A stretch of DNA of 43,357 nucleotides from Verrucomicrobiota bacterium (GTDB lineage: Bacteria; Verrucomicrobiota; Verrucomicrobiia; Limisphaerales; J093), in NCBI GenBank assembly GCA_022710935.1, contig JAKLFY010000054.1:1-43357 (forward strand), read 5' to 3'. Below, piece after piece: positions 9,559-41,302 of the stretch. Position 1 is the first letter of the stretch; every line of letters starts with the position of its first letter. Both the position numbers and the translations under genes were made by a program. Below the pieces are notes generated by a model. That model was given only the letters and a program-made list of their open reading frames with translations, was not told the origin of the DNA and searched no databases.

Positions 9559-9694
9559 CGTGCATCTGGTTGTTGTCGGTGTTCTGTCGCCCGGTGAGGG
9601 CGCTGCGCCTACACCGGATGGAGACTCCCGCTGGAAGCCGCGTGCCCCCGCGCGGCGCAAACTCGACTTCCATCGACAACCTCGAGATGCACCG
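9559..9694. repeat. Dispersed inverted-end repeat, copy 1 of 3
   Basis: The left end reads GTGCATCTGGTTGTTGTCGG and the right end is its imperfect reverse complement (CGACAACCTCGAGATGCACC). Internal GC-rich palindromes include CCCCGCGCGG-type stems. Related copies lie at 34708-34931 and 41158-41302. No coding capacity. This copy occupies the gap between tRNA-Arg and the ABC permease. Confidence 0.6.
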
Positions 9695-11423: not shown

Positions 11424-11687
11424 CAGGAGAGCGGGGACGTCCGTGTCTTCGACCAATGAAATCGCAGAATGTGCTCGCGGGCGACGAGGACGTCGCCCCT
11501 CCGGCGTGGAGGTTGGCGCAGGCAGGGGTGCGGCGGTTGACCGCCGCTTTCCGAGGACGATGGTCGGTCACGTCCCACGCAAAGCGGTGCTGAAGCACCG
11601 CAGTCCAGACGCTTCGCGCTGTTGAAAGCGTTCGTGCCCAGGCAGCTTCCGTGCAAGATCCGCATCTCAGCCGGCCTTAGGTTGACG
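11424..11687. repeat. Composite dispersed repeat, copy 1 (modules B then inverted A)
   Basis: Module B (11424-11557) runs from GAGAGCGGGGACGTCC through TGCTCGCGGGCGACGAGGAC to GACCGCCGCTTTCCGAGGAC. Module A (11580-11687) reads, in reverse complement, GTCAACCTAAGGCCGGCTGA through TTGCACGGAAGCT to GTGCTTCAGCACCGCTTTG. Both modules recur at 15600-15918 but with a different relative orientation. No gene is seen in the intergenic stretch 11405-11788. Confidence 0.7.
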
Positions 11688-11745
11688 CGTATGCGCGGCT
11701 GCGGGATCGTCCCTTCGAGTCTCGGACGCGGCGCGGTTTTGCCAC

Positions 11746-14497: not shown

Positions 14498-14563
14498 ACC
14501 CGGAAATCTCACCCGTGGACCCTCAGGAATGCCACGACGGCCCCACCGGTGAGATTTCCGGGT
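14498..14563. repeat. REP-like palindrome with perfect 16-bp arms in a divergent intergenic region
   Basis: ACCCGGAAATCTCACC (14498-14513) and GGTGAGATTTCCGGGT (14548-14563) are exact reverse complements with a 34-bp spacer. It lies between the divergent genes starting at 14296 and 14620, so it could affect both promoters. Confidence 0.85.
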
Positions 14564-15519: not shown

Positions 15520-15599
15520 GGCTTTCCCTGGTTGGGGAAGCCGGGCACCACACGGAACGCGAATCTCGTCGGAGGGCCGATCCCGCAGCGGCGCATCGG

Positions 15600-15918
15600 C
15601 GTCAACCTCAGGCCGGCTGAGATGCCGGCCTTGCACGGAAGCTACCCTGGCACGAACGCGTCCGACAGCGCGAAGTCCCGCATTGCGGAAGAGTGCGTGT
15701 GCTTCAGCACCGCTTGGGAATGGGAACGCACTGAAGACCGTCCTGGGAGAGTGGGGACGTCCCCGTCCCCGACCGATGGGGGCGCGGAATGTGTTCGCGG
15801 GCGACGAGGACCTGCCTGCCCTGCCTGCCCTGCCTGCAGGCAGGCGGCAGGCAGGCGCCGCCCCTCCCGTGCTCTGCCCGCGCATGGGTGCGGCCGCTGA
15901 CCGCCGCTTTCCGAGGAC
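15600..15918. repeat. Composite dispersed repeat, copy 2 (modules A then B)
   Basis: Module A (15600-15716) opens GTCAACCTCAGGCCGGCTGA and continues TTGCACGGAAGCT to GCTTCAGCACCGCTTGG. Module B (15744-15918) opens GAGAGTGGGGACGTCC and ends GACCGCCGCTTTCCGAGGAC. Both recur at 11424-11687, where A is inverted relative to B. B here carries an extra GC-rich hairpin (15811-15856). The surrounding intergenic stretch 15520-16167 has no supported gene. Confidence 0.7.
15811..15856. repeat. GC-rich hairpin inserted in module B
   Basis: Three CCTGCCTGCC-type units are followed by the inverted GCAGGCAGGC units, making a strong hairpin. In the other copy of module B the flanks GACGAGGAC and GCCCCTCC are almost adjacent, so about 43 bp appear to have been inserted or expanded here. 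Confidence 0.7.
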
Positions 15919-23179: not shown

Positions 23180-24483
23180 AGCCTGGATTTCAGATTACTC
23201 CTGCAAGGGGTGGGAAATCCGGGCTGGGTGTGCTCCTGGCCAAGGATCTGCGGCGGGCGCGTCGCAATCCGCTCCCGTTTCTGATTCACCTGACGGTCCC
23301 GCTGGTGATCACAGCGCTCCTGGGCCTGGTGTTTGGCGGCGGCGGGGGCGGCACGTCCAGCGGCCCGGGCAAGATCAAATTCGCCATCGTGGACGAGGAT
23401 GATTCGGTGGTGACCCAGTTCCTGCGCGGCGCCGTGAACCAGGGGCGGGCGGCCGAGCGGCTGCAGCCGGTGTTTCTCGATCGAACGAACGGGCTTGCGC
23501 AGGTCACGGGCAATGAACTGAGCGCGGTGATCATCATTCCCGCCGGGTTCACCCGCAATTATCTCACGGCGTCGGCGCCCGTGACGATCGAGTTGGTCAA
23601 GAACCCGGCGCAGTCCATCTACCCGGCGGTGATCGAGGAACTGCTGGGCGCGCTCGAGACCGGGTTGAACGCCCTGTCACGCAACTTTGCCGATGAACTG
23701 ACGCTCTGGAGCCGGGTGTTTGACAGGCCGGGCGGACCGGACTTTCGGGTCGTGGCGGACCAGATCGTGAAGACCGGCGAGAAGATCGAAGCCATCGGGG
23801 GTTTCGTGAATCCGCCCCGCGTCAGCTACGAGAAGGAAACGCGCGACGAGGAGACCTCGGCGAAGGGGCCCGGATTCAACCTGTTCGCGTTCCTGTTGCC
23901 CGGGCTGGCGGGCATGTTCCTCCTCTTTCTCGCGGAGGTGTCGGTGCGGGACGTGTACCGGGAGATTCGGCTGCGGACATTCGAGCGGTTCTGCACGCTG
24001 CCCCAGAGCATCCGGTTGTTTGTCGGCGGCAAGGTGGCGGTGGCGGTCGTGATCCTGCTCCTGGGCGCGGCCATCATGCTCGGCGGCGGCGGTCTGATCC
24101 TGCGCATCGATTGGCGCGCGCCGGCAGCCATGGCGCTGGTGGGGGCCAGCTACGCGCTATTCGCCGTGGGCTTCATGATGTTGTTGGCGTCCATCGCGCA
24201 GACGGAGGGCCGTGCCGACGCCTTGGGCAACGTCGTCGCGATGGCGCTTGGCCTGGTTGGCGGGTGTGCGTTTCCCGCCGATGCCCTGCCGACTTTCATG
24301 CGCGAACATCTGACCCCGTTGATGCCGCCCAACTGGTTCGTCGAGGCCATCCGCGGGCTGCAGTCCGGGGCGGACGCGGCGTGGCCATGGGCGGCGGTCA
24401 AGCTGGCGGTTTTCGGGGTGGCGCTCGCCATCATTGCGGCGTGGGTGCTCGAGCGAAAGCTCCGGACAGGAGTGCGCGCATGA
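23176..24483 (+). CDS. ABC-2 exporter permease, first subunit
   Basis: A 435-residue permease. The start at ATG 23176 overlaps the ATPase stop. An N-terminal span (FLIHLTVPLVITALLGLVFG) is followed by a large extracytoplasmic domain of about 190 residues (IKFAIVDEDDSVVTQFLRGA; LSAVIIIPAGFTRNYL), then five or six spans with the ABC-2 loop REIRLRTFERFCTLPQSI and the end FPADALPTFMREHLTPLMPP-NWF. This is the YhgE/DrrB-like ABC2_membrane_3 layout. Codons 2-16 are made by a REP-like palindrome, so the original N terminus may have been different. The substrate is unknown. Confidence 0.92.
   Translation: MKPGFQITPARGGKSGLGVLLAKDLRRARRNPLPFLIHLTVPLVITALLGLVFGGGGGGTSSGPGKIKFAIVDEDDSVVTQFLRGAVNQGRAAERLQPVFLDRTNGLAQVTGNELSAVIIIPAGFTRNYLTASAPVTIELVKNPAQSIYPAVIEELLGALETGLNALSRNFADELTLWSRVFDRPGGPDFRVVADQIVKTGEKIEAIGGFVNPPRVSYEKETRDEETSAKGPGFNLFAFLLPGLAGMFLLFLAEVSVRDVYREIRLRTFERFCTLPQSIRLFVGGKVAVAVVILLLGAAIMLGGGGLILRIDWRAPAAMALVGASYALFAVGFMMLLASIAQTEGRADALGNVVAMALGLVGGCAFPADALPTFMREHLTPLMPPNWFVEAIRGLQSGADAAWPWAAVKLAVFGVALAIIAAWVLERKLRTGVRA
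23180..23225. repeat. REP-like palindrome inside a coding start
   Basis: AGCCTGGATTTC (23180-23191) and GAAATCCGGGCT (23214-23225) are inverted copies with one mismatch and a 22-bp spacer. They encode permease residues 2 to about 17 in frame. The arms match the intergenic REP family. Confidence 0.7.
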
Positions 24484-25610
24484 AGCAGAGCCTTGCCATC
24501 GGGCACAACGACCTGCGCCTCTTTGTGCGCAATCCGTTTTCGCTGGTCTGGCTGTTCGTGGTTCCCTTGGCGTTTGTCTATTTCATGGGCCTCGCAAACC
24601 GGGGTCCGGGCGATCCGGCCAACCCGCGTCCGGCAGTGCTCGTCGAGAATCTCGACACGAACTTCCTCGCCCGCGCCTTCCTGGCGGAACTGGGATTGCA
24701 GGGACTGGCGGTGCTGGACCCCACGAACCGCGACCAGGCGCGACGCGGGATCCGGATCCCCGCGGACTTCACGGAGCGGGTGCGGCGGGGGGAGCAGGCG
24801 AAGGTGCGGTTCTTCACGCTCAAGGGGTCCGGGCCCGATCTCTCCGAGTTGGTCGAGGTGCGGTTGGTGCGCGCCCTCATCGCCCTGAACTCGCATCTGC
24901 TTGAACACGCCGGAAACCACAGGGGCGCACTGCCCGACGAGCCCGCCCTCGAGGCGCTTCGCGCCCGGCCGAATCCCGTCCGGCTCGAGGCGCGGTTCGC
25001 GGGCAGGCGTCCGATCCCGGCGGGCTTTGCTTTGTCCGTGCCTGGGGTGCTGGTGATGTACCTGATGTTAAACCTCCTGGTGTTTGGCGGCGCCGCGTTG
25101 GCGAGCGAACGGCGGTCGGGTCTCATCCGCCGGTTCATGGTCCAACCGCTCGGTCGGAGCGCGCTGATCATGGGGAAGGTGTATGGGTTGGTTCTGCTCG
25201 GCGCGGCGCAGGTCGCGGTCTTCCTCGTGTTGGGCCAGTTTCTCTTCCGGGTCAATCTCGGCTCGGAACTGCCCGGGATTGCGCTGACGCTGCTGATCTA
25301 CTCCTGGCTCTGTGCGTCGCTTGGGGTGTTGATCGGATCGGTGATTGCGGCGGAGGAGCGGATTGTCGGGCTGTGCCTCCTGGTGAGCCTGGTGATGGCC
25401 GCGCTCGGCGGGTGTTGGTGGCCGCTCGAAGTCGTGCCCGAAACGATCCAGACGCTTGCCCATCTGTTCCCGACCGCATGGGCGCTGGATGCGCTCCATC
25501 AGATGATCACGTTCGGCGGCGGATTCGGCGCGGCGAAAGGCGCGGTGGGCGTGCTCGTGCTGTACGGGCTGGCCGCGAATCTGGCGGCCATCAAGTGGTT
25601 CCGCGCGTGA
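24480..25610 (+). CDS. ABC-2 exporter permease, second subunit
   Basis: A 376-residue permease. Start ATG 24480 overlaps the preceding stop (ATGA). The layout mirrors the first permease: one N-terminal span (LVWLFVVPLAFVYFMGLA), an extracytoplasmic domain of about 160 residues, then about five spans with ASERRSGLIRRFMVQPLGRS as the ABC-2 loop and GGCWWPLEVVPETIQTLAHL-FPTAWALDAL near the end, the conserved ABC-2 C-terminal signature. With its partner and the ATPase it should form an ABC heterodimeric exporter. The stop lies 7 bp before a 142-bp inverted-repeat element. Confidence 0.93.
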   Translation: MKQSLAIGHNDLRLFVRNPFSLVWLFVVPLAFVYFMGLANRGPGDPANPRPAVLVENLDTNFLARAFLAELGLQGLAVLDPTNRDQARRGIRIPADFTERVRRGEQAKVRFFTLKGSGPDLSELVEVRLVRALIALNSHLLEHAGNHRGALPDEPALEALRARPNPVRLEARFAGRRPIPAGFALSVPGVLVMYLMLNLLVFGGAALASERRSGLIRRFMVQPLGRSALIMGKVYGLVLLGAAQVAVFLVLGQFLFRVNLGSELPGIALTLLIYSWLCASLGVLIGSVIAAEERIVGLCLLVSLVMAALGGCWWPLEVVPETIQTLAHLFPTAWALDALHQMITFGGGFGAAKGAVGVLVLYGLAANLAAIKWFRA

Positions 25611-25617
25611 GGGCGAA

Positions 25618-25759
25618 GGGTCACATCTTCATATTTGACAATTGACGTTGCGCACGTCGCGTCAATCCCGTCCTGGCGGGCTTTGCCCCGCGGAATCCCT
25701 GACAAACCGGCTTGATGCCCTGAACTGTTGGCAAAATGTCAAATATGAAGATGTGACCC
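25618..25759. mobile_element. 142-bp MITE-like element with perfect 23-bp terminal inverted repeats
   Basis: The left end GGGTCACATCTTCATATTTG plus ACA (25618-25640) is the exact reverse complement of 25737-25759. The interior holds an imperfect palindrome (CCGTCCTGGCGGGCTTTGCC and CGCGG) and no gene. The ends resemble those that surround REP-associated Y1 transposases (TnpA-REP) in other bacteria, but no transposase is present. It fills the 155-bp gap between the convergent gene ends at 25610 and 25766 and may double as a terminator. Confidence 0.85.
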
Positions 25760-25765
25760 CAACGA

Positions 25766-26302
25766 TCACGAGGGCGCGGACCACCACGGGCTGTAGATGA
25801 GGCGGAGATGCTCGTCCGTCGGGTTCCAGAGCCTCCTGAGCAGCGGGATGACCTCGCTGAGATCGAGCCACAAACGGGTTGTAAAGAGCGTCGGTTCATG
25901 ACACCTCACAACCGCGCGAAACGGCACTCCCTGCTTCCCGGCCACCAGGGCGCGAAACGGCGCCGTCTCGCCCGGCTGGAGCCTGCCCGCGCCGACAAAC
26001 GAACTGAACAACTGGCTGGACTTGAGGTGGGGATCCGAAGGGGCCTCGATCACGACGCTCCAATCAATCGCGCGTTGGGTCAGGTTCCGGATCGTAAAGC
26101 GCCCGTAGGGATTCAGGTGAACGCCGCTGGAATCGATGCCGTCGAAGCTGATCGCGATCGGAGCCCTTGCTGGAAGCACCCAAAGCAGGCCGACGGCAAC
26201 GACCACCGCGCCGAGATACAGCAGCGCGTTCCCCCGGAGCCGCTTCTGAAGGGGGCGCGCGGTTGAATCGGCGTGGATGCCTGATGGAGGCGCGGCATTC
26301 AT
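25766..26302 (-). CDS. Membrane-anchored protein of unknown function
   Basis: A 178-residue protein from ATG 26302, preferred because AGGG precedes it and the longer frames would overlap the end of the upstream pseudopilin gene. One N-terminal membrane span (ALLYLGAVVVAVGLLWVLPA, about residues 27-46) is followed by a predicted extracytoplasmic beta-sandwich (AIDWSVVIEAPSD, GRLQPGETAPFRALV, VPFRAVVRCHEPTL) and a C terminus with RLWLDLSEVIPLLRRLWNPT. No family is recognised. It follows the pseudopilin gene on the same strand. Confidence 0.65.
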   Translation of the reverse strand: MNAAPPSGIHADSTARPLQKRLRGNALLYLGAVVVAVGLLWVLPARAPIAISFDGIDSSGVHLNPYGRFTIRNLTQRAIDWSVVIEAPSDPHLKSSQLFSSFVGAGRLQPGETAPFRALVAGKQGVPFRAVVRCHEPTLFTTRLWLDLSEVIPLLRRLWNPTDEHLRLIYSPWWSAPS

Positions 26303-26412
26303 TCCCTGCCGGACAGGAGCACCCCTTTCCGCCCCGCGGGCCGCCCCGCGGGCAAGGCACTTGATCCGCGAGGAGCACCAGTGGCGGCGTTCGGCGTCGT
26401 GCCCGTGATCGG

Positions 26413-27240
26413 TCATCTCAGCGCGGTCGAGCGCTCGATGACCCACTTGATGTCCCGGCTGTTCGGGGCCGGGAAACCGTTGTACTGGGTGCGGCGGATC
26501 TTCACTTCCGTGCTCTTCTCGAGCCAGCGTTTGATCTCGCTATGGCCATCGGCGAAGTTGAACCCGCAGGCGTTGTTGTGGTAACTGGCCGGCAGATCGG
26601 TCCAGTTGTTGGGGTCAGTGACGTTGGTGATTTCCCATCCGTCGTTGATGCTGTCGGGGTGTTCGTCGTTGAGCATCCACAACTGGGCCGGTGCCGGCCT
26701 GATCACGTCGGACACTCTGTTGTACATGCAGTAATTCGGGTACCACGTCGAGCCGCTGGCCGTATTGAGGCTGTAGGCGCCCCCCTCGATGAACCCGTTC
26801 ATGGCATTGCTGCGGACCCGGAGCGCTTTGGTGCGGCCCATATTGACCGGGTAATTGTCGGCCGGGCAGCGGTAGATGCCGACATCGCTTGTGTAGGCGC
26901 CGATCTTGGCCTTGAGGAGGAAGTAGGTGTTGGTGTTGTCCGTGTTGCCCGTATTCCAATCCAGCCATCCGGCGACCCAGCTCACGTTGACATCCTTCGT
27001 GCCGCCGTCCCGGTTGGGTGGAAACCAATCGGCGTTGTCGTGGGTGTACATGAGCACCGCGAGCGCCAGTTGTTTGGTGTTGCTCATGCAGACGATGCCC
27101 GTGGCCTTGGCCTTGGCCTTGCTGAGCGCCGGCAGGAGCATGCCTGCCAGGATCGCGATGATCGCGATCACGACGAGCAGTTCGATGAGGGTAAAGCCGT
27201 GGCGAAGGGCTCTCCTGGTTTGGGTTGACTTGGGGATCAT
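26413..27240 (-). CDS. Prepilin-type pseudopilin with H-X9-DG motif, downstream of lutC
   Basis: The protein has 275 residues. A basic leader ([14 protein letters not shown]) precedes [19 protein letters not shown] and [13 protein letters not shown]. The C-terminal half has [13 protein letters not shown], the H-X9-DG motif. It is a paralogue of the protein at 14620-15519. The ATG lies 4 bp after the lutC stop on the same strand, so it could be read through from the lut operon. No classical Shine-Dalgarno sequence is visible. The function is unknown beyond export as a type II pseudopilin-like protein. Confidence 0.93.
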
Positions 27241-34707: not shown

Positions 34708-34931
34708 CGGTGCATCTGCTGGTTGTCGGTGTGATGCCGCCCGGTGAGGGCGCCGGGCCTACGCCGGATCGAGACTCTCCATGGCAGGCCCCGTTTCCCC
34801 ACGCGGCGGGAAGACAGACATGGGTGCAGACGCCGGGTCAGGGGACCCGGCCTGCTGATGATGCCCATTCTGTAGGCCGCGTGTCCCCACGCGGCGGGAG
34901 CTTGATTCGCACTGACAACCTCCAGACACAG
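34708..34931. repeat. Dispersed inverted-end repeat, copy 2 of 3
   Basis: The left end GGTGCATCTGCTGGTTGTCG and right end CTGACAACCTCCAGACACAG are imperfect inverted copies. The interior holds GGGCCTACGCCGG, GTAGGCCGCGTGTCCCCACG and GCGGCGGGA motifs shared with copy 3. It is longer than the other copies (224 bp) because the central part seems duplicated. It ends about 30 bp before the putative rpoD promoter. Confidence 0.65.
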
Positions 34932-41157: not shown

Positions 41158-41302
41158 GGTGCATCTGGCTGGTGTCGGCGTTCTGCCGCCCGGTGCAGGC
41201 GCCGGGTCAGGCGACCCGGCCTACAAGCTGATGACACCCATTGTAGGCCGCGCGCCGCCACGCGGCGCATTTTGATTCCCACCGACAACCTCCAGACACA
41301 CC
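41158..41302. repeat. Dispersed inverted-end repeat, copy 3 of 3
   Basis: The left end GGTGCATCTGGCTGGTGTCG and right end CACCGACAACCTCCAGACAC are imperfect inverted copies. Interior motifs GCGCCGGGTCAGGCGACCCG and GTAGGCCGCG recur in copy 2. It lies between the divergent glyQS and response-regulator genes, just outside the putative glyQS promoter. Confidence 0.65.

Follow-up and report, generated by a model that had tools for sequence, protein, structure and literature searches.

A 142-bp sequence lying between two convergent genes is very probably a miniature non-autonomous element (MITE) of a family of the terminal inverted repeat (TIR) type, whose full unit of about 1.1 kb carries a Y1/HUH transposase of the TIRYT group (subclass 2.1 TnpA-Y1). 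This kind of element has already been published (PMC3733652, PMC6006769); what is new is the family and its detail, no description of which was found in the open-access literature searched. The element is located in a stretch of 43,357 nucleotides, the whole of which was analysed and is referred to as the window. Coordinates of its features are listed in Table 1.

Table 1. Features of the window element and its immediate flanks
Feature	Position	Strand	Remarks
Whole element, non-autonomous TIR pair	25618..25759	.	142 bp
Left terminal inverted repeat, L-type	25618..25640	+	continues GACAATTG; corresponds to tnpA 3' side in C179 unit
Right terminal inverted repeat, R-type	25737..25759	-	continues GACATTTTG; corresponds to tnpA 5' side
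Putative position of decayed tnpA 3' end	25621..25690	-	codons for QLSNMKM, then TGA stop from TIR (25621-25623)
Left flank, permease stop to element	25611..25617	.	gcgaa, without CWTG preference
Right flank	25760..25765	.	gttg towards element on minus strand, close to CWTG preference

The original prediction, made from this DNA alone, described a 142-bp element with perfect 23-bp inverted ends that nearly fills a convergent intergenic gap. Both points were borne out. The arms are exact reverse complements over 23 nt, and extension to 26 nt leaves them 96% complementary. The gap of 155 bp is delimited by an ABC-2 permease gene (24111-25610, plus strand) and a convergent gene without Pfam match (25766-26446, minus strand), and all but 13 bp of it, 7 on the left and 6 on the right, is occupied by the element. 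At up to 3 mismatches the 23-mer occurs in the window only twice (mean of 100 shuffles 0.00).

The exact location between two convergent 3' ends would suit a bidirectional terminator or structured RNA serving both genes, and so would the fold, which is far stronger than in shuffled sequences on both strands (z of -6.9 and -7.8). Any 23-bp inverted repeat would, however, give such a fold, and the stem is not followed by a T run. Rfam search of the window retrieved tmRNA and tRNA only, with nothing at the element. Further, 36 ends of the same type are scattered in the genome among varied gene orders, no end is present behind the permease orthologue of a related genome (G004), and the arms display no covariation (see below). 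A terminator or RNA is thus highly improbable and was rejected for want of an Rfam family, of the element in G004 and of covariation. No host function is demonstrated for the window copy. The original prediction had named a single copy conserved in place in all relatives as the pattern pointing to such a structure; the element is instead multicopy, without conservation of place in relatives examined.

Using the 23-mer as query at up to 3 mismatches, the genome of origin (G000; 7.52 Mb in 259 contigs) was found to contain 36 ends, 18 per strand; the reversed pattern, taken as control, gave 0 matches. These ends form 10 inverted pairs of 89-146 bp, 13 singles (at some of which a decayed partner is still present), one extra end beside a pair, and one pair spanning 1107 bp. 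They are intergenic or overlap predicted gene ends, the gene calls around ends and brackets being based on open frames and codon-position GC only. Over its whole length, the window element is 75-76% identical to the elements on contigs C204, C194 and C225. In the congener G001, 23 ends of the family occur. At two loci (L139:1739-1800 and L143:1956-2023), a single TIR is tandemly duplicated at the element end with a period of 39-42 bp. The end sequence was also encountered once each in two contigs (L200, L207) of metagenome-assembled genomes labelled Deltaproteobacteria and Syntrophobacterales, which represents either transfer or misbinned contigs.

Mismatches between arms are absent over 23 nt in five of 18 family pairs, so that the perfect arms of the window copy are nothing special within the family. 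Since positions 1-14 and 18-23 of the end are nearly invariant over 57 ends, arm identity is read as a reflection of constraint by end recognition. Of the original alternative, "recent or under constraint", the second half therefore fits, whereas the date of insertion is not readable from the arms.

The 1107-bp pair (C179:38107-39213) brackets a gene for a Y1/HUH transposase of 359 amino acids, so the transposase with matching ends that the original prediction proposed to look for does exist. Together with the multicopy end and the lack of conservation in place, it bears out the view of a separate mobile lineage. The C179 protein matches Y1_Tnp with 52 bits (55 bits in the genome search) and contains NHFH and YVHLNP motifs, as in the RAYT-like TIRYT group; the match to the NCBIfam RAYT model, at 65 bits, is under the cut-off of 80. 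The last codons of tnpA and its stop are supplied by the TIR itself. Altogether 12 Y1_Tnp matches were found in G000. Four of the other genes are bracketed by their own, different TIRs of GGGTCR type, about 1.1 kb apart; for the remaining seven, no TIRs of GGGTCR form were found.

Size and TIR length of the short elements are also typical of MITEs derived from a classical DDE insertion sequence, which would then share its ends with the Y1 unit merely by chance. Y1_Tnp is, however, the sole transposase found between these ends, the ends diverge jointly with the Y1 protein, and no target duplications are present at copies inspected. A DDE origin is hence extremely improbable, and was rejected because neither duplications nor a DDE gene between the ends were found.

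The ends fall into two types. Following GACA, the L end, which corresponds to the 3' side of tnpA, continues with ATTG and similar sequences, and the R end (5' side) with TTTG, TTCT, TTGC and the like. One L end is combined with one R end in 16 of 18 pairs and units of G000 and G001, a count that includes orthologous, i.e. non-independent, pairs; both exceptions, R plus R, stand at one orthologous place.

A TnpA-like C-terminus (K[AT]W, a decayed run, QLS) is encoded by the interior adjoining the L end in three elements, those of C194, C225 and G001-C190. When the tnpA strand is read in the frame of the TIR stop, the similarity was reached in 0 of 1000 shuffles for each of the three, by both ungapped and gapped tests. 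The ungapped test, for which one target stood in the wrong frame, covered 19 ends, and the gapped test in the right frame covered 9 of these 19. Intermediate values were obtained for C5 (23 and 33 of 1000, ungapped and gapped, respectively) and C217 (23 and 26 of 1000). In most other pairs the remnant is not significant, nor is it in the window copy taken alone (126 of 1000 ungapped, 909 of 1000 gapped). The latter is grouped with remnant-bearing elements due to its whole-length identity to C194 and C225. From shared ends and sister remnants we conclude that the group comprising C194, C225, G001-C190 and the window copy most likely arose, as MITEs may do, from a full unit that lost its interior by deletion. 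The interiors of other pairs (C1, C220/C181, C124) are unrelated, and a separate origin is possible for these.

Inverted pairs of similar size, decayed singles, intergenic places and a Y1 transposase as likely mover are likewise properties of REPINs, i.e. RAYT-moved pairs of REP hairpins in which each end is a palindrome with GTAG or GTGG foot and hairpin formation by the pair is maintained. The ends of the present family lack the GTAG foot. Single ends are not above shuffles in palindromicity for most of 17 end types, four or five folding somewhat better. Mismatches average 1.39 between arms within an element and 1.55 between elements, with 1538 of 9999 permutations as good; the covariation term in the consensus fold of 8 related pairs is unfavourable (+1.2), and among 22 arm pairs there are 0 two-sided changes. 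These covariation tests are small (18 pairs, very few variable positions) and of limited power. In addition, the transposase carries the motifs of subclass 2.1, and REPs are said to be lacking from that subclass (PMC6006769). A canonical REPIN is therefore very unlikely, and this explanation was rejected on the basis of non-palindromic ends and arms without covariation. Compared with the published description of REPINs and RAYTs (Bertels and Rainey 2011, PMC3116915), the family is alike in that short inverted pairs are mobile, singles are decayed pairs and the likely mover is a Y1 enzyme. It differs in lacking REP palindrome, GTAG foot and compensatory changes, and in that the interior of one group is derived from tnpA.

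To return to the MITE of a Y1 unit, the traces left at the places of its copies are as follows. The original prediction had suggested searching for target duplications and for empty sites in close strains. Neither search was successful: none of the elements inspected showed a target-site duplication, the flanks being read by eye, and no clean empty site was found in relatives examined, flanks being rearranged or changed near the elements. Sequences beside shared elements differ between species over tens of bases. As to the window element, its 140-bp flanks have no match in G001, where orthology of the right neighbour begins only at 26235. The full unit of G001 encodes a protein 93% identical to that of C179 and sits between segments found at two other G000 places. 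Parts of a second transposase copy in G001 are 98.4 and 99.4% identical to the first; the locus of this copy is syntenic on both sides with C179 of G000 at around 66 kb, and G000 lacks an end there. As G000 and G001 differ over about 160 bp to one side and 40 bp to the other, the 66-kb locus represents presence/absence and not a clean empty site. Several rearrangement breakpoints between G000 and G001 (L137, L134, L141 versus G000 contigs) are located at or within a few kb of TIR elements, so that recombination has a share in what is observed. Just outside the ends, composition is biased. G precedes GGGTC at position -1 in 46 of 57 ends (in the window copy, the left end has A and the right end G), T is found at -2 in 36 and C at -4 in 33, orthologous and tandem ends being included in this table.

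Some elements enclose genes. In G000, two inverted 89-bp elements that are 93% alike enclose a PIN/Phd-YefM toxin-antitoxin pair (C1:55142-56052, L059). A Uma2 gene (C124:11479-12548, L060) is likewise enclosed, on one side by an intact element and on the other by one whose right end is decayed. At both orthologous places in G001, a single element is kept and the cassette is missing. An inverted bracket of two elements with another end type was seen once in G013. Pairs of miniature elements could accordingly act as a composite Y1/HUH transposon that moves or captures small accessory cassettes, which we regard as doubtful. As a general rule the idea was rejected: since the genes within other brackets of G010, G013 and G000 are ordinary ones (for methyltransferase, pilin-like and unnamed proteins), most brackets are probably chance neighbours in adjacent gaps.

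Homologs of the C179 transposase were sought in 293 genomes of the order and detected in 31 of them (E <= 1e-40). According to a script, clear TIRs of GGGTC or GTCACATC type flank 19 of 30 homologous loci; the others include contig edges, partial genes and weak or other repeats. End distance tracks protein distance (Mantel r 0.718, n = 20 genes), 0 of 9999 permutations reaching this r. The set consists of 15 relatives with readable ends and 5 G000 genes. Left out were L156, L177 and L178, which have TIRs and a broken or partial gene, and L149, which is the C179 gene itself. The end is the same at 92% protein identity, differs at 1 of 24 positions at 66%, at 4 of 24 at 58-60% and at 8-11 of 24 at 31-36%. 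Families of other ends are also dispersed. The C180 unit has an end that recurs in G000, with 42 occurrences at up to 3 mismatches, mostly as singles; two of them are C1 ends of the present family. A third end type, with 51 ends in G010 and 56 in G013, often forms inverted pairs (79-191 bp among those listed) and brackets its own transposase in G010 and G067.

These data suggest how the elements might spread. The transposase would recognise the 23-nt ends in trans, most likely via its C-terminal region, and its tyrosine would nick and rejoin single-stranded DNA. Copies would be placed in intergenic spots with weak preference for CWTG just outside the ends. A full unit most likely gave rise to a miniature element by internal deletion, and the window copy would have come to lie behind the permease gene. 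That the enzyme moves the elements is our inference.

In the literature, TIRtrons/TIRYTs are RAYT-like genes with long TIRs of the form GGGGWSAS, and their TIR families consist of singles, dimers and groups (Di Nocera and others 2013, PMC3733652). The present family resembles them as described there: a Y1 gene is flanked by long TIRs that follow this motif, in the form GGGGTCAC in most copies, the TIRs overlap gene ends, dispersed singles occur along with dimers, and several TIRYTs with different TIRs coexist in a genome. Features beyond that description are the interiors of one group, most likely derived by deletion, the asymmetry of L and R ends, and the joint divergence of ends and proteins across the order. 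The elements are also like bacterial MITEs as outlined in the same paper, namely non-coding, 70-300 bp long, with TIRs of 15-30 bp and derived from a larger element; unlike MITEs in general, they have a likely Y1/HUH mover and no target duplication was seen.

Most TIRYTs were later assigned, as probable members, to TnpA-Y1 subclass 2.1, with further analyses called for (Quentin and others 2018, PMC6006769). That account gives NHVH or NH[YF]H together with Y[IV]HLNP as motifs, as well as a long C-terminal extension, and the present proteins agree with it. NH[FYV]H and Y[VIL]HLNP are present in all 20 proteins checked, some with an L that is absent from the published motif. Lengths as called are mostly 319-358 amino acids, against a median of 238 given for the subclass (PMC6006769). 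The C-terminus is described there as a helix-turn-helix similar to DnaA_C, HTH_23 or HTH_28; here such resemblance is weak, Bac_DnaA_C matching 2 of 17 proteins, at E 0.0047 for the best, and not the C179 protein. Verrucomicrobia are unnamed in the main text on subclass 2.1 (PMC6006769). The group, named in 2013 (PMC3733652), was in 2018 still in need of further analysis according to the latter source (PMC6006769). One genome and its relatives now offer a consistent picture, in which transposases come with ends of their own, both diverge jointly over the order, and short derivatives outnumber full units. They also provide ready pairs of substrate and enzyme for asking if TIRYTs act on plain inverted repeats or on hairpins, which bears on the origin of REPs.

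Apart from the element, the window contains further repeats. In two related stretches (11426-11718 and 15569-15918), repeat pieces are present both in direct (66 and 37 bp) and in inverted orientation (107 bp, 86%). A further dispersed repeat, roughly 78 bp long (GTGCATCTG...), is found at 9560-9637, 34710-34787 and 41159-41236, with 60-83% identity to a reference copy. A separate inverted repeat of 21 nt (ACCCGGAAATCTCACC...), whose arms are 24 nt apart, occupies 14498-14563 and bears no relation to the element ends.
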